From Thermincola carboxydiphila (lineage in GTDB: Bacteria; Bacillota; Thermincolia; Thermincolales; UBA2595), in assembly GCA_016841325.1 (NCBI GenBank), contig JAENZJ010000025.1:1-44894 (forward strand): 44,894 bases of DNA, given 5' to 3'. Shown piece after piece: positions 9,812-36,152 of the stretch. Within the stretch, counting starts at the first letter, position 1, and each line of letters begins with the position of its first letter. A program made the position numbers and the translations under genes. The notes under the pieces were generated by a model. That model saw only the letters and a list, made by a program, of their open reading frames with translations. It searched no databases and was not told where the DNA came from.

Positions 9812-10279
9812 TCAGGTTGTAAAATCCTTTTTACTGAACAAATTAATCCCGTGTCCGGTTTCCCTGTGGCATTCCAGGCATTTGCGGTCACTTTTGAGCC
9901 ATTGATAGTGTTTTGAGTCAAGTCTTACAGTATCCGGATAATTATAATAATCGCCCAGGTGGCAGGCAATACAGTTTTGTTCAAAAACAATGGCTTCAGC
10001 AATTATTGTGTACTGACCGGTGAGCTGTTGGTAGACGTAGTTCAGGCCCCGCGATTTAGAGTGCAGCTTGCCAAAGAAACCCCTGAATTCATGACAGTAA
10101 AGGCACTTGACGTCTTGATGCGGGGACCGCCGCCATGAAGCAACATATTTTTTTATCTCATGACAGGTACCGCAGAAAGAAGGTTCGGATGTAGGGAAAT
10201 AAAGTGCCATGAAGGCAGTATAAAGCAACAAAACAGTCACCGAGATTATTAAGGCTCCTTTTTTCCATGATATCAACAT
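9812..10279 (-). CDS. Membrane-anchored tetraheme cytochrome c, NapC/NirT/NrfH-like
   Basis: 155 residues: one N-terminal membrane helix (~res 8-28) with an extracellular domain carrying four CXXCH haem sites (CGTCH, CLYCH, CIACH, CLECH). The first pair, with the spacer EIKKYVASWRRSPHQDVK, is the classic NapC/NirT arrangement. Such proteins take electrons from menaquinol and pass them to a periplasmic or extracellular partner. No nrfA, napA or other reductase is adjacent, so the partner is unknown. The ATG at 10279 has GGAGG (10286-10290 on the complement). It is transcribed against the hyp operon and away from the B12 operon. Confidence 0.88.
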   Translation of the reverse strand: MLISWKKGALIISVTVLLLYTAFMALYFPTSEPSFCGTCHEIKKYVASWRRSPHQDVKCLYCHEFRGFFGKLHSKSRGLNYVYQQLTGQYTIIAEAIVFEQNCIACHLGDYYNYPDTVRLDSKHYQWLKSDRKCLECHRETGHGINLFSKKDFTT

Positions 10280-10383: not shown

Positions 10384-10404
10384 GTGAACTACAAATAAAT
10401 ATCT

Positions 10405-10560
10405 GTAACTTCTGGGTTTTTTTCAAATGGGAATCAGGTCAAGCCTGAGCGGTCTCCGCCACTGTATCCGGGGAGTGCCCTTACATGATGCCACTCGTTT
10501 AAAGGGGAAGGCGTAAGCGGCATGTTTATCCGGGAGCCAGGATACCAGCCCGGAAGTGAC
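10405..10560 (+). promoter_or_regulatory. Adenosylcobalamin riboswitch
   Basis: A cobalamin-riboswitch aptamer. Conserved pieces in order: GGGAATCAGGTC (10429-10440), the core CTCCGCCACTGTA (10453-10465), GCCACT (10490-10495), GGGGAAGGCG (10504-10513) and the B12-box GAGCCAGGATACC (10534-10546). Helix P1 closes it: CTTCTGGG (10409-10416) with CCCGGAAG (10549-10556), one G-U pair. Binding of adenosylcobalamin normally represses the downstream genes, and here those are B12 synthesis genes. The 425-base gap between the cytochrome gene and cobU holds only this element, its promoter and its hairpins. Confidence 0.93.
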
Positions 10561-10655
10561 CATACAGTCCTTCGCGAGAAAGGATTATGGTTGTTTTACA
10601 GGGGTTTTATGCCTTGATAACCATGTCCTCAGTCGCTGACTGGGGATTTTATTTT
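10559..10655 (+). terminator. Expression platform of the cobalamin riboswitch: two hairpins
   Basis: Hairpin 1: ACCATA (10559-10564) / TATGGT (10586-10591), plus TCCTT (10568-10572) / AAGGA (10580-10584), then TTGTTTT. Hairpin 2: TCCTCAGTC (10626-10634) / GACTGGGGA (10638-10646), one G-U pair, followed by TTTTATTTTG, a good intrinsic terminator. ATGGTT (10587-10592) can instead pair with AACCAT (10619-10624), which would change the folding. Attenuation before cobU is therefore likely; the exact switch is inference. Confidence 0.65.
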
Positions 10656-19375: not shown

Positions 19376-19425
19376 AAATAATTTTAGAAGGACGAATAAT
19401 ATCTACATAATGTAAGGTGTGGAAA

Positions 19426-20946
19426 ATGCAGTCAGGAAACAGGGATGCAGTAAAAAAACAGACTCAGTTATTCGATGTCCGGGGGTTATGGGTTTTATAC
19501 TCGACCTCAATCATATGTGGTGCTGCCCTGATGGCTCTGGAAATTGTTGGTGGACGTCTTTTATCACCGTTTTTTGGCGGTTCGGTCTATGTCTGGGGCA
19601 GTATCATTTTTGTCTTTCTGAGTGCCCTTAGTTCAGGGTACTATCTTGGTGGTGTCGCCTCTGATAAAAGGCCAAGCCTCACTTATCTGGCAGTTTTTAT
19701 TGCAGTGGCAGGTTTACTGATTCTACTCATTCCACCTATGGTATCCCCCTTGGTCAAATTTGCCTTTGCCATAGGATTGGGGAATTACGGGACACTCTTT
19801 GTGGCTATGCTGTTGTTTTTTTTACCCAGCATAGGACTGGGGATGGTATCACCATACATAGTTAAGCTGGGGATAAAAGAGTCAAGCAGGTTAGGGAATA
19901 TGGTTGGCAAGTTTTATGCCATTTCCAACATTGGGAGTATTGTCGGTACTCTGGCTACCACTTTTTTTCTGGTCCCCATGTTTGGCACAAGACATATAAT
20001 TATCGCTTTGGGTGTTATCCTGGTTATCCTGGCAACGGGTATATTAGTAACTAACAAAAGAATGTCACAGGGCATTCTGGTTTTTTGCCTGCTGGTATTT
20101 TCCCTGTTTGCAGTAACCGCGGCTGATTCCCGGGAAAGCAGCCATGCCGGGGAACTGATTTATCAGAAGGAGACGGCTTACAACAATATCAGGGTAGAGG
20201 ATTATTATGAACGGCGTTACCTGCTTTTTAATGAGTCTGAGCAAAGTGTCATCAATAAGTTACGGCCTGAAGAACACATTTGGCCATATACGGAGCTGAT
20301 GGACAATGCTGCCAGTTATTTCAGTCCCGCTGCTACGGACGCTTTGGTTATCGGAATTGGCGGTGGGACTGTTATCAATAGTATGCTGGCGCAAAACCCG
20401 AACCTGTTTATTGATGCCGTAGACATTGACCCCGAAGTTATCAGGGTGGCTTATGAATACTTTAACATGCCGGACAGTCAACAGCTCCGGACATTTGCTG
20501 CAGATGGCAGGGTGTTCCTGAGAGGCAAAAAGAACCGGTATGATGTAATTATGGTAGATGCATATAACCGTACAAGTATTCCGGCCCACCTGACGACCAG
20601 AGAGTTTTTTTCCGAAATGAAAAATGCCCTTAAACCGGATGGTATTGTAATCTTTAATATTGTCAGCAGCATTGAGGGTGCTTACAGTCCGTTTTTCAAG
20701 AGTTTATTACTCACTTCACAGCAGGTTTTCCCCGAAAGCCGTCTTTTTCAGGCGGAAACCGATGACCCGTCAGATTTGGATAATCTTATCCTGATCGCCT
20801 CAAACCGCAGGCTAAGCATGCCGGACCTGCTTGCCAACCGTTCCGGGTATATAACAGATGATATCGACCTCAGCAATGCCATAGTACTCACAGATGATTA
20901 TGCACCTGTAGACACCCTGGCATTGGAAATTATGTCACTTTACTAA
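19426..20946 (+). CDS. Membrane protein with C-terminal spermidine-synthase-like domain
   Basis: 506 residues in two halves. The N-terminal half (~15-225) holds about seven hydrophobic helices. The C-terminal half (~245-500) is a Rossmann-fold methyltransferase/aminopropyltransferase-like domain with the glycine loop ALVIGIGGGTVINSML, the acidic end DAVDIDPEV and VIMVDAYNRTSIPAHLTT, as in spermidine synthases. Such fused proteins are common but poorly characterised. I infer no polyamine role here, since it begins a cytochrome cluster (15-heme gene 31 bases downstream). AAGGTG (19414-19419) sets ATG 19426 rather than GTG 19417. Confidence 0.82.
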   Translation: MQSGNRDAVKKQTQLFDVRGLWVLYSTSIICGAALMALEIVGGRLLSPFFGGSVYVWGSIIFVFLSALSSGYYLGGVASDKRPSLTYLAVFIAVAGLLILLIPPMVSPLVKFAFAIGLGNYGTLFVAMLLFFLPSIGLGMVSPYIVKLGIKESSRLGNMVGKFYAISNIGSIVGTLATTFFLVPMFGTRHIIIALGVILVILATGILVTNKRMSQGILVFCLLVFSLFAVTAADSRESSHAGELIYQKETAYNNIRVEDYYERRYLLFNESEQSVINKLRPEEHIWPYTELMDNAASYFSPAATDALVIGIGGGTVINSMLAQNPNLFIDAVDIDPEVIRVAYEYFNMPDSQQLRTFAADGRVFLRGKKNRYDVIMVDAYNRTSIPAHLTTREFFSEMKNALKPDGIVIFNIVSSIEGAYSPFFKSLLLTSQQVFPESRLFQAETDDPSDLDNLILIASNRRLSMPDLLANRSGYITDDIDLSNAIVLTDDYAPVDTLALEIMSLY

Positions 20947-20977
20947 CCAGAGGACCAATGAGGCGAAGGTGTTAAAT

Positions 20978-22348
20978 ATGAAAGGTGTCTGGCTTAGAGC
21001 CAAAAAAATTAAATTAAGTCCACGAGCCAAACTACTAATAGTCATAGTACTTATCATAATGGCAATATCCGTATCTTCCTATAAGACTCTTGAGTACATA
21101 GAGCAACCAGAATTTTGCCGTATGTGCCATACCATGGGCCCTTATTACAGTTCATGGGAAGGGTCGGACCACAGTCAGGTTAACTGCTACAGTTGCCATG
21201 GGGAGACAGAATTAAAGCTAAAGACTGATGATACTGTTAAAGTCACCACAAAATATACCCTTTCCAGGGATTTGCTTACAACAAACAGAGTGGTGAAGGT
21301 TTTTGGTAAAATTGTTGACAGGATGTCGGAGTATTATAAAGCAGTTTCCGATTATGCAGATGAAAAAAACAGGCAATTAGCATTTCTTGTTGACATGTAT
21401 ACAGATTCGACAGGCCGATCGGAGAGACATCGTGCTTGGGACAGTTGTGTGACATGCCACGAGGGTTTTCTGTTTTCCCGATCAGGAAATGACCATTACG
21501 GCCATTTTAGACATACCGGAAGTGGAGTAACCACATGCCAACAGTGTCACGGAAATCTGGTCCATGAACAGAAAAAGGAAATTACCAGGGAAGCATGTCT
21601 CAACTGCCACGACAGTAAAATACCCAAACCCCCGTCACATCTCCCTGATTCATTTAAGATAAGCCATGGGAAGGATTACCTTTCAGAGAAAAACTGCAGC
21701 CTGTGTCATGTTAACGGTGTCCGGGAGCCTCTCTGTCAGGATTGTCACAAGGTACAGATGCCACACCCGGAAAATTATAGAGAAGCCCACATACCGGCAA
21801 TAGCGGAAATAGGGGTGAGGACATGTTTTAAGTGCCATCAGGAGGATTTTGACCTACAACAGGCAGAACCGTCACAGACTGATGAGACTGCCCCTGTGGA
21901 TAAGGCATCGTGCAGTGTTTGTCATGGGGTGAAGATGCCCCACAAAGAAAATGTATTGAAAGAACATACATCACTGGCAAAAAGGTCGGGTTTGCGGAGC
22001 TGTAGTTATTGTCACCAGACATCCCCGGGGCAAAAAGACATGGCTGTGGCCTGTGCTGACTGTCACAAATTGGATATGCCGCATTCAGCGGGTTTTAAAA
22101 CCAATCACAGGGGGGTGGTTGAGACCAAAGGCCAGGGTGTTTGCAACTATTGTCATACTCCAATGAATCCGGTAAACCCGGGAGCGCCCTGGGCCCGTCC
22201 GGGATTCTGCCTGGACTGTCACATGAAGAATAAGCCCCATGAAACAGGTTATAAAATTGATCATCAGTTAGGCGGATATGACCGTAACAGGTGCAGTACC
22301 TGCCATCCCAAGGAAATCCACTGCAATGAATGTCATTTTGGGGAGTGA
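20978..22348 (+). CDS. Fifteen-haem membrane-anchored cytochrome c, NapC/NirT-like N-terminus
   Basis: 456 residues. An N-terminal membrane helix (~res 18-36) is followed by 15 CXXCH sites. The first two (CRMCH, CYSCH), with the spacer TMGPYYSSWEGSDHSQVN, copy the NapC/NirT quinol-oxidising module. A ~90-residue haem-free stretch follows, then 13 more sites (CVTCH to CNECH) ending a few residues before the C-terminus, with repeated MPH/KPH segments offering distal His ligands. It probably takes electrons from menaquinol and passes them outward. ATG 20978 has GAAGGTG (20965-20971). No catalytic reductase domain was recognised. Confidence 0.9.
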   Translation: MKGVWLRAKKIKLSPRAKLLIVIVLIIMAISVSSYKTLEYIEQPEFCRMCHTMGPYYSSWEGSDHSQVNCYSCHGETELKLKTDDTVKVTTKYTLSRDLLTTNRVVKVFGKIVDRMSEYYKAVSDYADEKNRQLAFLVDMYTDSTGRSERHRAWDSCVTCHEGFLFSRSGNDHYGHFRHTGSGVTTCQQCHGNLVHEQKKEITREACLNCHDSKIPKPPSHLPDSFKISHGKDYLSEKNCSLCHVNGVREPLCQDCHKVQMPHPENYREAHIPAIAEIGVRTCFKCHQEDFDLQQAEPSQTDETAPVDKASCSVCHGVKMPHKENVLKEHTSLAKRSGLRSCSYCHQTSPGQKDMAVACADCHKLDMPHSAGFKTNHRGVVETKGQGVCNYCHTPMNPVNPGAPWARPGFCLDCHMKNKPHETGYKIDHQLGGYDRNRCSTCHPKEIHCNECHFGE

Positions 22349-22438
22349 TATTATTTATAAATAATAGAAAAATTCATACAAATAGGCAATAAAAAATACT
22401 ACTCTTTGTAGAAAAAGTTGGGTTTACAAGAAGGATTT

Positions 22439-22455
22439 TGTCGATAGATGTCGAA
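22439..22455 (+). promoter_or_regulatory. Possible Spo0A box pair upstream of the TPR gene
   Basis: TGTCGAT (22439-22445, within TTTTGTCGA) and TGTCGAA (22449-22455) start exactly 10 bases apart in the 257-base gap between the 15-haem and TPR genes. A TG-g-TATTGA (22479-22487) might be a weak extended -10. Nothing else is recognised in this gap apart from a short GGTC/GACC hairpin near 22554-22571. Confidence 0.38.
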
Positions 22456-22605
22456 ATAACGTCATGATGATTTAGTGATGGTATTGAAGAAAAAGTGAGA
22501 GCAACGAATTCGGTTATGGCATGTTGTGTTGAAAGCCAAGAATATCGGGGGGGTCTTTCAAGAAGGTGACCCGGTAACAATCAGTTTGTTTAGGAGTGAT
22601 TTAAA

Positions 22606-23244
22606 TTGTCTGATTTATCGGTAAAACAGCAGCAAAAGGTATCTGTTCCGATTGTGATTATAATTCTGGCTCTGCTGGCATCCAATATAGTTATGGGGGT
22701 TCTAACTGTTAGAAAGTACATATCCAAAGAACCCACTGTTGCCCCACAGATAGCCCAGCTCCAAAGCTATCTCGACAAAGTTAATGCCAACCCTGCAGAT
22801 ATCAATAATAGGCTGCAGCTTGCCTATACCCTGCAAATGATGAATGAGTACGAACAGGCCAGAGAGCAATACATGGAGGTCCTTAAGATTGAAGAAAATA
22901 ACCTGGCAGCCAATTATAATTTGGGTGTGATAGCCCAAAAAGAAGAAAAATACCCGGAGGCTGAAGAGTATTACACAAAAGTCCTCAGCCTCAAAGAAAA
23001 TCATGTGATTGCTGCCATCGGTCTTGGTGAAACCTACCTGGCCCAGGAAAAATATGATGAGGCAATTACAGTTGCTGACAAAGTTCTCAAATTGCAACCC
23101 GGAAAGACGGATTTGCACTTGCTTAAGGCCCGGGCCTATGAACAGAAGGGAGATAACGAAAAGGCTGCCGAACAATACAATGAAGTACTTAAATATATAC
23201 CTGATGATCCGGAAGCAGTTGAAGGTTTGAAAAGAGTGAAGTAG
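22606..23244 (+). CDS. Membrane-anchored TPR protein
   Basis: 212 residues: a single N-terminal membrane helix (~res 13-35) then an outward-facing tetratricopeptide domain of about four to five repeats (~66-205), with typical W/A-G-Y-P spacing such as NNLAANYNLGVIAQKEEKYPEAEEYY (described by its A-N-L-G and Y-P-E-A cores). TPR domains dock other proteins; here it may tether the secreted cytochromes or NHL protein. TTG start at 22606 after TAGGAGTGA. 20 bases before the NHL gene. Confidence 0.85.
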   Translation: MSDLSVKQQQKVSVPIVIIILALLASNIVMGVLTVRKYISKEPTVAPQIAQLQSYLDKVNANPADINNRLQLAYTLQMMNEYEQAREQYMEVLKIEENNLAANYNLGVIAQKEEKYPEAEEYYTKVLSLKENHVIAAIGLGETYLAQEKYDEAITVADKVLKLQPGKTDLHLLKARAYEQKGDNEKAAEQYNEVLKYIPDDPEAVEGLKRVK

Positions 23245-23264
23245 GGAATTGAAAGGAGCTTAAA

Positions 23265-24341
23265 ATGAAGGGGAAACACAAGGCAAATATAACTATCGCA
23301 GTACTGACAGCGACCCTTGCTCTCTTAGTATATATTTTTATCAGTATTCCGGAATTCGGAGGTGGCGGTATTGTTTCCGCCCAAAAGAAGACAGTCGGTA
23401 AAATCGAATTCCTCTTTGCCGTCTACGGTCCGGGACGGGGTGCACTTCCCAGCCTGAATAAACCCATGTCTGTGGCTACAGATTCCGAAAACAATATTTA
23501 TGTCAGTGACAGTGGAAATAACCGGATTGTGGTTTTTAACCGCAGGGGAGAATATATGTTTGAATTCGGAACCCGGGGTGTGGCCCACCCCCGGGCGGGT
23601 GAAAAGGCTGACTGGAGTCCGGGAAAATTTAATTATCCCTATGGCATTGATATCGATGAACAGACAGGGAATATATTTGTGGCTGACCTGGTAAATAAGA
23701 GGATACAGGTATTTGACAACCAGGGTAAGTTTATTGACTGGTTCCCCAAAGAGCCGTATGGCGGAACTGCTGATGATATTTTCCCTCTGGCCATGGATGT
23801 CAGTGGCGGGAATGTATATATCGCCAATCCATTCAATATAGTGATTTTTACTACCGAGGGTAAGTTTGTAAAGGACTTTGGCATGCCCGGTGACGGTGAC
23901 GGCCAGTTTGACCGTCCCAATGGGATTGCCGCCGGAAAAGACGGGACCATTTATGTCTCTGATTCAAATAATCTGCGGCTGCAGGCCCTGGACCCTAACG
24001 GAAAAGTCAAATGGGTGTATGGCAAGGTGGTTAATGCCTTTGACAATTTCAACAAACAACCCCAGGAATTCGAACTGCCGCGAAACATTGCGATCGGACC
24101 TGATGATAACATCTATGTGGTTGACAGCTTTGATTTCAATATCAAGGTAATCTCACCCAAAGGAAAATTACTGGCAGAAATGGGCCGGCGCGGGGTGGAA
24201 GACGGGACCTTTAATTTCCCCAATGGGATAACGGTGACTCAGGACAAAATCCTGTATGTTGCAGATAAGGGTAATGACAGAGTCCAGGCTGTCAGACTTA
24301 CTGATTTTGTCATCGAAAAGAATCAGGAGAATGAATTTTAG
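23265..24341 (+). CDS. Extracytoplasmic NHL-repeat beta-propeller protein
   Basis: 358 residues. An N-terminal membrane or uncleaved signal helix (~res 9-28) is followed by about six NHL repeats (recurring signature N.IYVSDSGNNRIVVF, IFVADLVNKRIQVF, IYVSDSNNLRLQAL, IYVVDSFDFNIKVI, LYVADKGNDRVQAV), forming a six-bladed propeller. No catalytic site is evident; the family commonly acts as binding scaffold. Sits between the TPR protein and the 7-haem cytochromes, so I infer a structural or docking role in the same complex. AAAGGAG precedes ATG 23265. Confidence 0.88.
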   Translation: MKGKHKANITIAVLTATLALLVYIFISIPEFGGGGIVSAQKKTVGKIEFLFAVYGPGRGALPSLNKPMSVATDSENNIYVSDSGNNRIVVFNRRGEYMFEFGTRGVAHPRAGEKADWSPGKFNYPYGIDIDEQTGNIFVADLVNKRIQVFDNQGKFIDWFPKEPYGGTADDIFPLAMDVSGGNVYIANPFNIVIFTTEGKFVKDFGMPGDGDGQFDRPNGIAAGKDGTIYVSDSNNLRLQALDPNGKVKWVYGKVVNAFDNFNKQPQEFELPRNIAIGPDDNIYVVDSFDFNIKVISPKGKLLAEMGRRGVEDGTFNFPNGITVTQDKILYVADKGNDRVQAVRLTDFVIEKNQENEF

Positions 24342-24370
24342 TCCCTGAATAATATTTTAGACTTTAAATA

Positions 24371-24387
24371 TACCTGGTTACCAGGTA
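24371..24387. promoter_or_regulatory. 17-base perfect palindrome before the first 7-haem gene
   Basis: TACCTGG (24371-24377), loop TTA, CCAGGTA (24381-24387). It sits 14 bases before the AAGGAGGTG ribosome binding site, so it may be an operator or a 5' mRNA hairpin that sets expression of the cytochrome above the NHL gene. No known regulator consensus recognised. Confidence 0.4.
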
Positions 24388-24415
24388 GCATTATATGGGA
24401 AAGGAGGTGAAAAAG

Positions 24416-25615
24416 ATGCGTAAATTCACTTTGATTGCTATGCTGACAATGTGTCTTGTACTGCTGACAGCAGGAGCTGCTTTTGCAGCCCACGGCGCCA
24501 GCGGTGACCGTACCGGCTACTATGATGCCGGTGGTTGTTCCGGATGTCACCCTTCAGGTGTGGACAAGCATACCTTTGGTCCGCACGGTGGTTATACAAC
24601 AACCAGTAACAAGTGCCAGTTGTGCCACCAGGTGCACGATGCCGGCAGCGCCCGCTTGCTGCCTGGTCAGACTGTAACTGATGCCTGCCAGCACTGTCAT
24701 GACATTACAGGAACTAATTCTGCTCCCTATTATGCCAGCGACCTTACAGACCCCAGCTATGGGAATGATGTTAAGGCAGCACACAGGGTATTTGGTACTG
24801 TAGCAGGCTTTGTCTATAATGATGTTTATGGCTCTACCACAATCCCGGGCGGTGATGCCACCAGCGGTGGTGACAGTACTCTGGATGTAAGCGACCAGGG
24901 AGCCCTTTCCGGGACTGATTTCACCTGCAACAGCTGTCACACACCTCACGCCATAGCTGGCAACACTGTTGGAATCTACCTAGGGGAGTCTCACGTAAAA
25001 TCCACAACAAAAGATCTGGCAGCTACAGAGATGAAGCTATACCTGACTAATAGGATCCTTAAGAGGACCGTTAACGGTACAGACACAGGAGGTGAATACG
25101 GCACCGCATGGTGTGCCGGATGTCACCAGGGACGTGACAACATGGGTGATGCCTTCAACCACCCGGTTGATGAGAACGGACTTGGCTATGACATGTTAGG
25201 TGCTGCTTTACCTGCCGGTGCAACATGGCTAAACGGCTCAGGCGAAGCAACAGTTGTCAGCAAGGCTTATCTGTTTATTGACACCGCTGGTACAAACCCC
25301 ATTGCAGACCTCGATGTGGACCCACGGAGCAATAAGTGGTATGCTATGGAAGGCACTGACCCGGTAAATGGAGATGCTGTTCGTCCCGACGGATTTGTAC
25401 CTTTCGCCAATTATGACGGAGGTATCGGGCCAAGCTGCCAGCAGTGCCATGCCAGCCCGCGGGATGTTGATGCAGCATTCTGGGCAGGTTTAGGCACAGC
25501 CGGTGATGGACACCCCTCCAGAGGTACTTTCCCACACTTAAGTACCAACCCAGCCCTGCTGGCGGAGAGTGGTGATGACTTCTGCACCAACTGTCACAAT
25601 CTGAACTTACCATAA
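24416..25615 (+). CDS. Secreted heptahaem cytochrome c, copy 1
   Basis: 399 residues. A signal peptide ends near AFA-AHG (res 24/25). Seven CXXCH sites follow: CSGCH (41), CQLCH (67), CQHCH (91), CNSCH (171), CAGCH (233), CQQCH and CTNCH near the C-terminus. The first three and the last two resemble the doubled-CXXCH family. No membrane anchor or cell-wall sorting signal is seen, so it is probably extracellular and held by partners. AAAGGAGGTG sets ATG 24416; the upstream ATG at 24395 precedes that site. Tandem paralogue follows at 25730. Electron partner unknown; may be the terminal wire of the cluster. Confidence 0.9.
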   Translation: MRKFTLIAMLTMCLVLLTAGAAFAAHGASGDRTGYYDAGGCSGCHPSGVDKHTFGPHGGYTTTSNKCQLCHQVHDAGSARLLPGQTVTDACQHCHDITGTNSAPYYASDLTDPSYGNDVKAAHRVFGTVAGFVYNDVYGSTTIPGGDATSGGDSTLDVSDQGALSGTDFTCNSCHTPHAIAGNTVGIYLGESHVKSTTKDLAATEMKLYLTNRILKRTVNGTDTGGEYGTAWCAGCHQGRDNMGDAFNHPVDENGLGYDMLGAALPAGATWLNGSGEATVVSKAYLFIDTAGTNPIADLDVDPRSNKWYAMEGTDPVNGDAVRPDGFVPFANYDGGIGPSCQQCHASPRDVDAAFWAGLGTAGDGHPSRGTFPHLSTNPALLAESGDDFCTNCHNLNLP

Positions 25616-25628
25616 AATTACTTAAAAA

Positions 25629-25662
25629 ATCAAAACTGCAACCTCAAGGTTGCAGTTTTGAT
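25629..25662 (+). terminator. Long hairpin after the first 7-haem gene
   Basis: A perfect 16-bp stem ATCAAAACTGCAACCT (25629-25644) / AGGTTGCAGTTTTGAT (25647-25662) with a 2-base loop and TTTTGATTT at its end. It acts as a terminator or as an mRNA-stabilising hairpin between the two paralogues. Confidence 0.7.
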
Positions 25663-25729
25663 TTCCAGAAAATATATGGCATTAATATCCTTAATTAACA
25701 TAAAAGTAATCCGGAAGAGAGTGAAAAAA

Positions 25730-26950
25730 GTGCGCAAGATGGTTTTAGGTGCTATCCTGGCTTTATTAACAGTTATATTGATTTCTGGTCCTGCCTTTGC
25801 GGCCCACACCAACCCGGGTGACCGCACCGGATGGGATGACAGGTACAATGCTGATGGTTGCGACGGCTGCCATGCCGGAAGCGCCGCCGGTACTTCCGGC
25901 CTGCATGGTAAGTATACAGCCTCCAGTAATAACTGCCAGGTATGCCACCAGGTTCATTCTTCCGATAACCCACGGTTACTGCTGGGCCAGACGGTAACTG
26001 AGGTTTGCCAGTTCTGTCATGATATTACCGGATCAAATCTGGCCCCGTACTTTACCAGCGACCTTCCGGACCCCGGTTATGGAAATGATGTTAAGGCATC
26101 ACACCGGGTATTTGGGGTATTAAACGGTTTCACCTACAACCTAGATTACGGTTCAACCACCATCCCAGGAGGGGATGCAGTTAACGGCGGGGATGCACCG
26201 CTGGATACCGGCGGTCAGGGTAAACTATCGGGAAATAATTTTACCTGTAACAGCTGTCATACACCACATGCGATGACAACAAATACCGTTGACATCTACC
26301 TTGGCGAATCTGCCCTCAAGGAGAGTGAAAGCGGTTTGAGTAACGGGCAGAGAAAAATCTACCTGACCAACCGCCTCCTGAAACGGGTGGTTAACGGGGT
26401 TGATACCGGCGGTACATACGGCGCCGCTTGGTGTGCCGGATGCCACCAGGGTAAGGTCAATAAGATGACAGTTAGTGATGGCGTTTACAGCTATGACCAC
26501 CCGGTTGATGGCTTCGGGCCGGCTTATGACCTGCTGGGTATGGGCAGGAACAACAGTTCTGATTGGATTAACGGTTCCGGTGAAGCGAAGGTTTTGAATC
26601 AAAAATATGTCTTTATTGACAGCAATCAAGACCCGGCGGGAGATGCCGATCTCAGCTTTGACCCCAGGAGTAATAAATGGTACGCTATGACTGATACTGA
26701 CCCTGTAAACGGTAATGTATATCGTCCCGACGGATTTGTCCCGTTCGGTGATTATACGGATATTGGGCCAAGCTGCCAGCAGTGCCATGCCAGCCCGCGG
26801 GATGTAGATGAGGCATTTTGGGCCGGATTTGACACAAAAGGAGCCGGTTATCCAACCAGAGGTACTTTCCCACACTTGAGTACCAACAGCTCATTGCTGA
26901 CTGAGCAAAACGGTGATGACTTCTGCACCAACTGCCACAACCCGGAATAA
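25730..26950 (+). CDS. Secreted heptahaem cytochrome c, copy 2
   Basis: 406 residues, a tandem paralogue of the preceding cytochrome with the same plan: signal peptide to AFA-AHT (24/25), then seven CXXCH sites (CDGCH 44, CQVCH, CQFCH, CNSCH, CAGCH, CQQCH, CTNCH). GTG 25730 is chosen because it aligns with the ATG of copy 1 (both read R-K-hydrophobic) and follows GAGAGTG. Blocks of DNA are identical between copies, including 41 bases around the sixth haem (25427-25467 against 26765-26805), which suggests recent duplication or gene conversion. The C-terminus ends right after the last haem. Confidence 0.9.
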   Translation: MRKMVLGAILALLTVILISGPAFAAHTNPGDRTGWDDRYNADGCDGCHAGSAAGTSGLHGKYTASSNNCQVCHQVHSSDNPRLLLGQTVTEVCQFCHDITGSNLAPYFTSDLPDPGYGNDVKASHRVFGVLNGFTYNLDYGSTTIPGGDAVNGGDAPLDTGGQGKLSGNNFTCNSCHTPHAMTTNTVDIYLGESALKESESGLSNGQRKIYLTNRLLKRVVNGVDTGGTYGAAWCAGCHQGKVNKMTVSDGVYSYDHPVDGFGPAYDLLGMGRNNSSDWINGSGEAKVLNQKYVFIDSNQDPAGDADLSFDPRSNKWYAMTDTDPVNGNVYRPDGFVPFGDYTDIGPSCQQCHASPRDVDEAFWAGFDTKGAGYPTRGTFPHLSTNSSLLTEQNGDDFCTNCHNPE

Positions 26951-27099: not shown

Positions 27100-27567
27100 T
27101 TATGGGTGATTAGAGGGGACAGAATCCTTATCAAGGGGGAGCATCATTCCTGTTTCTATGCCATATACCTGCCACCGGTCACCTTTCTTTCGTAAATCAA
27201 AAGTTAAAGTCGTTTGATATTTATCTGTCGTCACCTTTGTTTTTATTATTGCCTGGTTGTTAACTTCATCAAGATATGGGTCAGGTTCAAATTCCCATGA
27301 TTTTATTTTACCCACCGGTTCCTGCTGCTGGGAGAGCTTCTCTTTAAATTTTTCGCGGTCTGCCGGCCAGGAACTGTATACACTGTATGTAACTGTTTCT
27401 TTAAGTTTGTCATAGTCCAGGTCCCGCATCCCTTCGAGGTAGGTATTGATTACCTGTTTTTGAATTGCTACATCAGGTTCTTTACTGCCGGTATTACACC
27501 CGGTGAATAGTGAGGCCAGAAGAATTACAAGGAATACAGAGAACAGTGCATTAATTTTTGGCATCAT
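27100..27567 (-). CDS. Putative lipoprotein, NTF2-like
   Basis: 155 residues from ATG at 27567. A signal peptide ends in the lipobox-like LFTGC (cysteine ~res 24), so it should be a membrane lipoprotein facing outward. The mature part has the strand-rich pattern of small NTF2-like domains: YLEGMRDLDYDKLKE, IIKTKVTTDKYQTTLTF, DRWQVYGIE. No catalytic residues are seen. The open frame reaches 27594, but GGGGGA on the complement (27579-27584) fits the later ATGs better, though spacing is long. Stands alone on the minus strand downstream of the cytochromes. Function unknown. Confidence 0.7.
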   Translation of the reverse strand: MMPKINALFSVFLVILLASLFTGCNTGSKEPDVAIQKQVINTYLEGMRDLDYDKLKETVTYSVYSSWPADREKFKEKLSQQQEPVGKIKSWEFEPDPYLDEVNNQAIIKTKVTTDKYQTTLTFDLRKKGDRWQVYGIETGMMLPLDKDSVPSNHP

Positions 27568-27669
27568 TAGAATTATGTCCCCCTTAGCTGTCATTGAAAC
27601 AAGAATATATGTTTATATTATATGATTAAATAAGTCAGAATTCAATATCAAGATGAGTTTTACGGGTGT

Positions 27670-36057: not shown

Positions 36058-36152
36058 ATATCAGTATCGAAAGGGCAAAATCAGTGAAAACTGGTGGCGC
36101 AAAACTACGGGTCTAAAGCTTAATAAATGCTATGACAGCCGGGTTACCGAAA
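36058..36152 (+). promoter_or_regulatory. Cyclic di-GMP-I (GEMM) riboswitch
   Basis: The GEMM core is clear. AAGGGCAAAA (36071-36080), then a CAGT-GAAA-ACTG stem with its GNRA tetraloop (36082-36093), then GGCGCAAAACTACGGGTCTAAA (36097-36118), and finally GACAGCCGGGTTACC (36134-36148). These align base for base with the known Vibrio Vc2 element at the GGGCAAA, GAAA, GCAAA and GGTCTAAA-type positions. Downstream lie a terminator and a Spo0E-like gene. The exact ends of P1 are uncertain. Confidence 0.9.

Follow-up and report, generated by a model that had tools for sequence, protein, structure and literature searches.

The window analysed here is a 44.9 kb stretch of DNA (44,894 nt) from Thermincola carboxydiphila. 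ORF calling across this window identified a collinear cluster of six ORFs, all oriented in one direction on the + strand, at positions 19417-26950 (Table 1). In the forward frame of the cluster, all 29 CxxCH sites of the window lie within the three cytochrome genes (15 in cytA and 7 each in cytB and cytC), and the remaining five frames contain 0, 2, 4, 7 and 0 such sites. These counts bear out an earlier sequence-only reading of the locus as six collinear genes encoding about 29 haems in 7.5 kb. The spacing within the cluster is uneven, with a 257-nt gap between the 15-haem gene and the TPR gene, and a hairpin that parts the two 7-haem genes. The cytC ORF opens at a TTG codon (25658) located within this hairpin; the GTG at 25721 agrees better with the homologues and is the likelier start.

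Table 1. Genes and intergenic features of the cluster, with their positions in the window
Feature	Position	Strand	Evidence
g1, fused MFS/spermidine-synthase-like membrane protein, 509 aa	19417..20946	+	NF037959
cytA, 15-haem NapC/NrfH-type membrane-anchored cytochrome, 459 aa	20969..22348	+	15 CxxCH, PF03264
Intergenic leader 5' of tpr	22349..22605	+	Alignment A5, motif positions
tpr, TPR protein, 212 aa	22606..23244	+	Pfam TPR
nhl, NHL protein, 358 aa	23265..24341	+	PF01436, 2e-34
cytB, secreted 7-haem OmcS/CwcA-type cytochrome, 406 aa	24395..25615	+	7 CxxCH, profile match to OmcS
Terminator-like hairpin between cytB and cytC	25627..25664	+	RNA folding of intergenic stretches
cytC, secreted 7-haem OmcS/CwcA-type cytochrome	25721..26950	+	7 CxxCH, start codons

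The six proteins were compared with Pfam and NCBIfam. The domain matched by CytB and CytC was Paired_CXXCH, and none of the six proteins matched a nitrite, sulfite, tetrathionate or other terminal reductase family above the curated cut-off. The original reading had likewise recognised no terminal reductase, and no catalytic family of NrfA, OTR, SirA or other dedicated terminal reductases was recognised in the six-gene unit. A prolyl isomerase (OscH-like) domain was absent from the six proteins in the same searches.

The g1 product matched NF037959 with 262 bits (cut-off 40). In CytA, PF03264 (NapC/NirT N-terminus) covers residues 22-201 (29.7 bits, cut-off 24.1), and is followed by cytochrome c3/c7 repeats with 11 further haems. 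A profile built from CytA relatives matched the NrfH quinol dehydrogenase (2j7a) with E=3e-9. NapC/NrfH-type modules usually oxidise menaquinol and, judging from these matches, CytA is likely to be a menaquinol dehydrogenase and the first conduit. A stand-alone 155-aa four-haem cytochrome of the NapC/NrfH type is encoded elsewhere in the window, at 9812-10279 (-), where it adjoins hydrogenase-maturation-like genes.

The tpr and nhl products contain neither haem motifs nor cysteine. By inspection, the TPR protein has one N-terminal hydrophobic stretch. AlphaFold2 predicted the NHL protein as an N-terminal helix followed by six four-stranded blades (mean pLDDT 91.6), and the nearest solved folds in the PDB were NHL domains. 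Their hydrophobic N-termini suggest that both proteins are membrane-anchored and face outwards. When plasmids were searched with the NHL protein, the matches were limited to distant propellers (best 35% identity).

Relationship of the secreted cytochromes to OmcS and CwcA

Comparison of CytB and CytC with the PDB was performed using profiles, as single-sequence searches were uninformative. OmcS was the best solved structure for the 7-haem family both with profile A1 (14 sequences, E=1.2e-4) and with profile A6 (24 sequences; 6ef8, E=2.9e-12). The specificity of the A6 match to OmcS is only moderate, because other multihaem cytochromes follow closely, at 3.8e-10 and 7.7e-10. The A6-OmcS score was 47.2 bits, and permutation of the columns other than Cys and His reduced it to a mean of 4.1 and a maximum of 21.0 (40 trials). 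Haems 2-5 of the family are collinear with the first four haems of OmcS, and the last two OmcS haems align out of order. Profile A8, representing the CwcA-type 6-haem proteins of sister cassettes (described below), matched OmcS at 1.1e-14 with all six haems collinear, the next best solved structure being at 4.8e-5. The CwcA-type and 7-haem profiles matched each other at 3.7e-31, over the N-terminal part. Based on these alignments, CytB and CytC are relatives of OmcS and CwcA, probably composed of an OmcS-like six-haem core and one N-terminal haem. This haem 1 is an addition, as it is missing from the two proteins of locus L046, one of which begins at a contig end. The AlphaFold2 model of CytC (24 sequences) reached a mean pLDDT of only 40.5 and was left out of the fold search, and the likeness to OmcS thus stays at the level of sequence.

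The supply of haem ligands was examined by counting histidines. CytC has 14 in all, 7 within the CxxCH motifs and exactly 7 others. Among the 14 sequences of the 7-haem family, the number of non-motif His is never below 7, which suffices for bis-His coordination of seven haems, and it is exactly 7 in four of the five CytC proteins (G000, G001, G003 and G009). Of these 7, six are invariant in all 14 family sequences and one lies near the mature N-terminus. If all haems are bis-His ligated, the N-terminal His of CytC must therefore be a ligand, which we put forward as a prediction. Most actinobacterial members of the family do not have this N-terminal His, and in some of them a different His stands ahead of haem 6.

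These counts also bear on the idea that the cluster encodes a reductase of unrecognised type for a soluble acceptor, in which one 7-haem protein carries a substrate-binding haem. In its favour, no more than six His columns outside the motifs are invariant across the family, for seven haems. We nevertheless regard this reading as highly improbable: all seven haems have CxxCH, at least seven further His are present in every one of the 14 sequences, exactly seven (one of them near the mature N-terminus) occur in four of the five CytC proteins, and no catalytic reductase family was matched.

The His of CxxCHxxH is common to the 7-haem family and OmcS. Being a general element of the Paired_CXXCH motif, it does not show ligation across subunits. 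OmcS and OmcE have in common a haem with a ligand from the adjacent subunit (PMC9473688, PMC12954529).

In the phylogeny of the family, cytC forms one clade that includes the G009 sequence (99/99), and G009 cytB stands apart from the other cytB genes. The cytB/cytC pair is therefore older than the split between the two families. A scan of viral contigs revealed no relatives.

Distribution of the TPR-NHL-cytochrome cassette

Full-length relatives of the 7-haem proteins were identified in 6 of 61 near genomes, and relatives covering at least 300 of the 346 profile positions in 6 of the 398 genomes of the phylum. Three genomes (G001, G002 and G003) carry all six genes in identical order. G009 has five of the six together, and its g1 on another contig. 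G005 carries three TPR-NHL-7-haem cassettes and one orphan 7-haem gene; a 17-haem NapC-type gene precedes two of the cassettes. The sequence-only reading had been staked on the genes staying together in other genomes and on the unit being free of a known dedicated reductase; the genes proved to be co-conserved in Thermincola-like relatives, and no such enzyme is encoded among them. The g1 gene is present as a single copy in all six genomes with the full-length 7-haem family, and in one of 15 other genomes searched (at 38% identity). It thus co-occurs with the 7-haem family; the electron route proposed below assigns it no role.

Within the same genome as the window, 10 NHL matches were found, six of which lie directly behind a TPR gene in TPR-NHL-6/7-haem cassettes (the window, L031, L128, L129, L125 and L127). 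When this genome was searched with the tpr profile, the top six matches were precisely the TPR genes that stand immediately 5' of the cassette NHL genes. A NapC-like or 12-haem cytochrome gene is among the upstream genes of four cassettes (the window, L031, L128 and L129). In contrast to the sister cassettes, no large surface cytochrome is encoded downstream of the cluster in the window.

Several genes flanking the cassettes were recorded. On contig C40 of this genome, a reading frame of ~3056 aa (L125:15432-20000, continued in L126:1-4593) contains 25 and 17 CxxCH in its two fetched halves, and is located directly downstream of a TPR-NHL-6-haem-NHL-6-haem cassette. Secreted 8- and 7-haem proteins are encoded 3' of two sister cassettes, at L129:9884-11932 (+) and L128:3539-5770 (-), respectively; their matches to Ca_tandemer, bacterial Ig and collagenase domains mark them as cytochrome-adhesin fusions. 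A small lipoprotein-like ORF without a Pfam match (window 27100-27594, -) is convergent with the cluster, and similar-looking small ORFs were seen by eye beside the cassette in G001, G002, G003 and G009, and twice in G005. One G005 cassette is followed by two ORFs with Tat-like signals (L028:12137-14154), which have matches of the C_GCAxxG_C_C type and 2 or 3 CxxCH.

On the scale of the phylum, an NHL match was found in 37 genomes, and 30 NHL loci, from 30 of these genomes, were examined. A TPR gene is directly upstream of the NHL gene at 25 of the 30 loci. A gene with at least three haems adjoins it at 29, and is located downstream within the fetched stretch at 24. OmcS-like matches were detected in 25 of the 398 genomes, all 25 of which have NHL, compared to 12 of the 373 others (Fisher p 6e-31, ignoring kinship and with scoring limited to the top 4 or 5 candidates in each genome). 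Across the phylum there were 56 cytochrome matches, of which 28 have an NHL gene directly upstream within 1 kb and 39 within 5 kb; some of the 28 without one within 1 kb are the second gene of a pair.

A scan of named genomes yielded 18 loci, 13 of them in 10 actinobacterial-type genomes (labelled Actinomycetes, Coriobacteriia, Coriobacteriaceae, Actinobacteria, Actinomycetota and, once, uncultured bacterium). NHL matches were present in all 10, at a total of 23 loci, with a TPR gene directly upstream at 20 and a multihaem gene directly downstream at 18 of these; only short stretches were fetched, and one of the loci without a TPR gene is at a contig end. At the 13 actinobacterial-type 7-haem loci, an NHL gene stands beside the 7-haem gene in only 4 cases and a TPR gene in 2, and therefore single genes also occur outside cassettes. 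Taken together, a TPR gene, an NHL gene and a gene for a secreted 6/7-haem cytochrome form a cassette that is repeated in the genome of the window, in its phylum and in actinobacterial MAGs. At two actinobacterial loci (L038:5107-7308 and L041:3397-5808), a gene for an O-antigen-ligase-like protein with a C-terminal TPR precedes a TPR-NHL-7-haem cassette.

Known systems and the proposed electron route

Electron passage through the thick wall of Gram-positive metal reducers has so far only been modelled. The published wall-crossing homologue of OmcS is CwcA (Tfer_0075) of T. ferriacetica, encoded near ImdcA (Tfer_0070) and modelled as an OmcS-like polymer in the wall (PMC7911101). This locus and the cluster in the window have in common a NapC-type membrane cytochrome and a secreted cytochrome homologous to OmcS in a Gram-positive bacterium. 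The haem counts and gene spacing of Tfer_0070 to Tfer_0075 recur at the sister locus L031: a 10-haem NapC-like gene is followed, at an offset of five genes, by a 6-haem gene, which at L031 is directly preceded by TPR and NHL. Unlike the CwcA locus, the window cassette has one 15-haem membrane cytochrome, two 7-haem subunits and g1, and lacks the 14- and 24-haem genes.

No Omp85 match was found in the genome of the window (99% complete), while 7 of 14 control genomes were positive; this is consistent with a single membrane. None of the six cluster proteins is a porin. A porin-cytochrome conduit of the MtrCAB type was rejected on these two grounds.

We consider it fairly probable that the cluster provides a respiratory electron exit across the monoderm wall, via an OmcS/CwcA-type wire with TPR and NHL partners. 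CytA would take electrons from menaquinol and relay them outwards, where secreted CytB and CytC would stack into a haem wire through the wall and possibly beyond it. The TPR and NHL-propeller proteins, presumably membrane-anchored, would be dedicated partners of the wire, with a role in capture, assembly or anchoring of the cytochrome where the membrane meets the base of the wall.

The sequence-only reading had offered either extracellular electron transfer or an undescribed complex across the Gram-positive wall. The former is now the best-supported reading, because of the lack of Omp85, the OmcS/CwcA-related cytochromes and the gene order of L031, which is like that of the CwcA locus. The term "undescribed complex" went too far, since CwcA has been published (PMC7911101) and NHL/TPR genes have been noted in electron-transfer clusters of a Gram-positive bacterium (PMC10376724).

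It is possible, though rather doubtful, that the conduit in the wall is not polymeric. CytB and CytC would then be monomers or dimers that link CytA with surface cytochromes encoded elsewhere, the NHL and TPR proteins being static scaffolds. Two paralogues rather than one would suit a heteromeric complex, and possible terminal partners exist in the large secreted cytochromes encoded at other loci of this genome, one of which is fused to adhesin-like repeats. However, the best structural relative identified by sequence, OmcS, is a filament subunit, and the relative CwcA was not kept soluble after expression in E. coli (PMC7911101).

A reversed direction, in which the same wire draws electrons inward from cathodes, partner cells or Fe(II) and uses them to reduce membrane oxidoreductases or the quinone pool, is improbable. 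Multihaem wiring is neutral as to direction, but the NapC/NrfH-type modules mentioned above usually draw electrons from menaquinol. The studied Thermincola relatives export electrons (PMC7911101). On the side of uptake, electron uptake from a cathode has been proposed for a Coriobacteriaceae strain with multihaem cytochromes (PMC7943316), and NHL genes also accompany the Uet set (PMC10734462).

Returning to the outward wire, three further systems offer parallels for its TPR and NHL partners. In Geobacter, the osc operon was reportedly described by Shen et al. in 2025 as encoding a propeller protein, OscD, and a prolyl isomerase, OscH. Secretion parts are described for this operon along with OscD, a morphology factor related to propellers, and OscH, which acts in folding (PMC13194489). 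An OmcS-family cytochrome with a beta-propeller companion is common to both systems, the nhl match being at the level of the fold only (six-bladed NHL). The window cassette differs in having a TPR protein, no prolyl isomerase, one more haem and no outer membrane to cross. The TPR and NHL proteins may be comparable in role to the Osc companions of Geobacter OmcS, a parallel drawn from role and not from sequence.

In Dethiobacter alkaliphilus, NHL and TPR genes occur among the multihaem genes of electron-transfer clusters, and a role in secretion, orientation or complex assembly has been suggested for them (PMC10376724). The fixed TPR-NHL-OmcS-type order and the link to OmcS, both features of the window cassette, are not described there in the text consulted. 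In the Uet pathway, UetA is an extracellular tetrahaem cytochrome, UetB a prolyl isomerase and UetHI are NHL proteins (PMC10734462). NHL proteins are thus again in a set with a small extracellular multihaem cytochrome; unlike the window cassette, this set is Gram-negative and includes a porin, a prolyl isomerase and a four-haem cytochrome. NHL genes also occur in Desulfovibrio ferrophilus (PMC9769857).

No description of the fixed TPR-NHL-OmcS-type order was found in the available text of the literature searched for this arrangement. CwcA across the wall and NHL/TPR genes in Gram-positive electron-transfer clusters were known already; what this cassette adds is the fixed gene order, its copy number, the pair of 7-haem cytochromes and the accompanying g1. 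Distinctive of the window cassette are the extra N-terminal haem, the duplicated pair parted by a conserved terminator-like hairpin and the co-occurring g1. The occurrence of the fixed order in two phyla points to named candidates for assembly factors. With its six parallel cassettes, the genome offers a genetic handle on whether OmcS-type wires are formed in cells that lack an outer membrane, and on which parts build them.

The hairpin and the leader region

The hairpin directly 3' of cytB has a 17-bp stem and a 4-nt loop. Its stem is near-identical in G001, G002 and G003, and the hairpin is kept in the four closest genomes; in G009, a shorter hairpin with the same core is located 3' of cytB. 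A further hairpin was found 3' of cytC. If the cytB hairpin acts as a terminator, it would lower cytC expression relative to cytB, and CytB may then be the more abundant subunit of the wire.

As a tentative extension of the proposed route, TPR and NHL could constitute a dedicated Gram-positive module for wire assembly, serving OmcS-family cytochromes across Bacillota and Actinomycetota. Six such modules in one genome, with different entry and surface cytochromes, could be interchangeable outlets. In the window cassette, CytB might form the shaft and the scarcer CytC an end or junction of one mixed wire, in a ratio set by the hairpin.

In an alignment of the four closest genomes (A5), conserved blocks were seen in the leader 5' of tpr, one of them being TGTCGATAGATGTCGAA at about 22439-22455. 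Paired TGTCGAA-like motifs 10 nt apart were found at this position (22439-22455, with one change), and at L024:5690-5706, L026:6942-6958 and L026:10010-10026. They are located 5' of g1 in G001 and G002, and 5' of tpr in G002 and the window. These pairs and TGTCGATAGATGTCGAA resemble tandem Spo0A boxes. A promoter scan returned 29 promoter-like sites compared to 15.6 in shuffled sequences, and is not specific. The leader gave only a chance-level match to Rfam. Elsewhere in the window, a cobalamin riboswitch (10397-10567, +) lies 5' of a run of cobalamin genes, and a c-di-GMP-I riboswitch is present at 36064-36151 (+).
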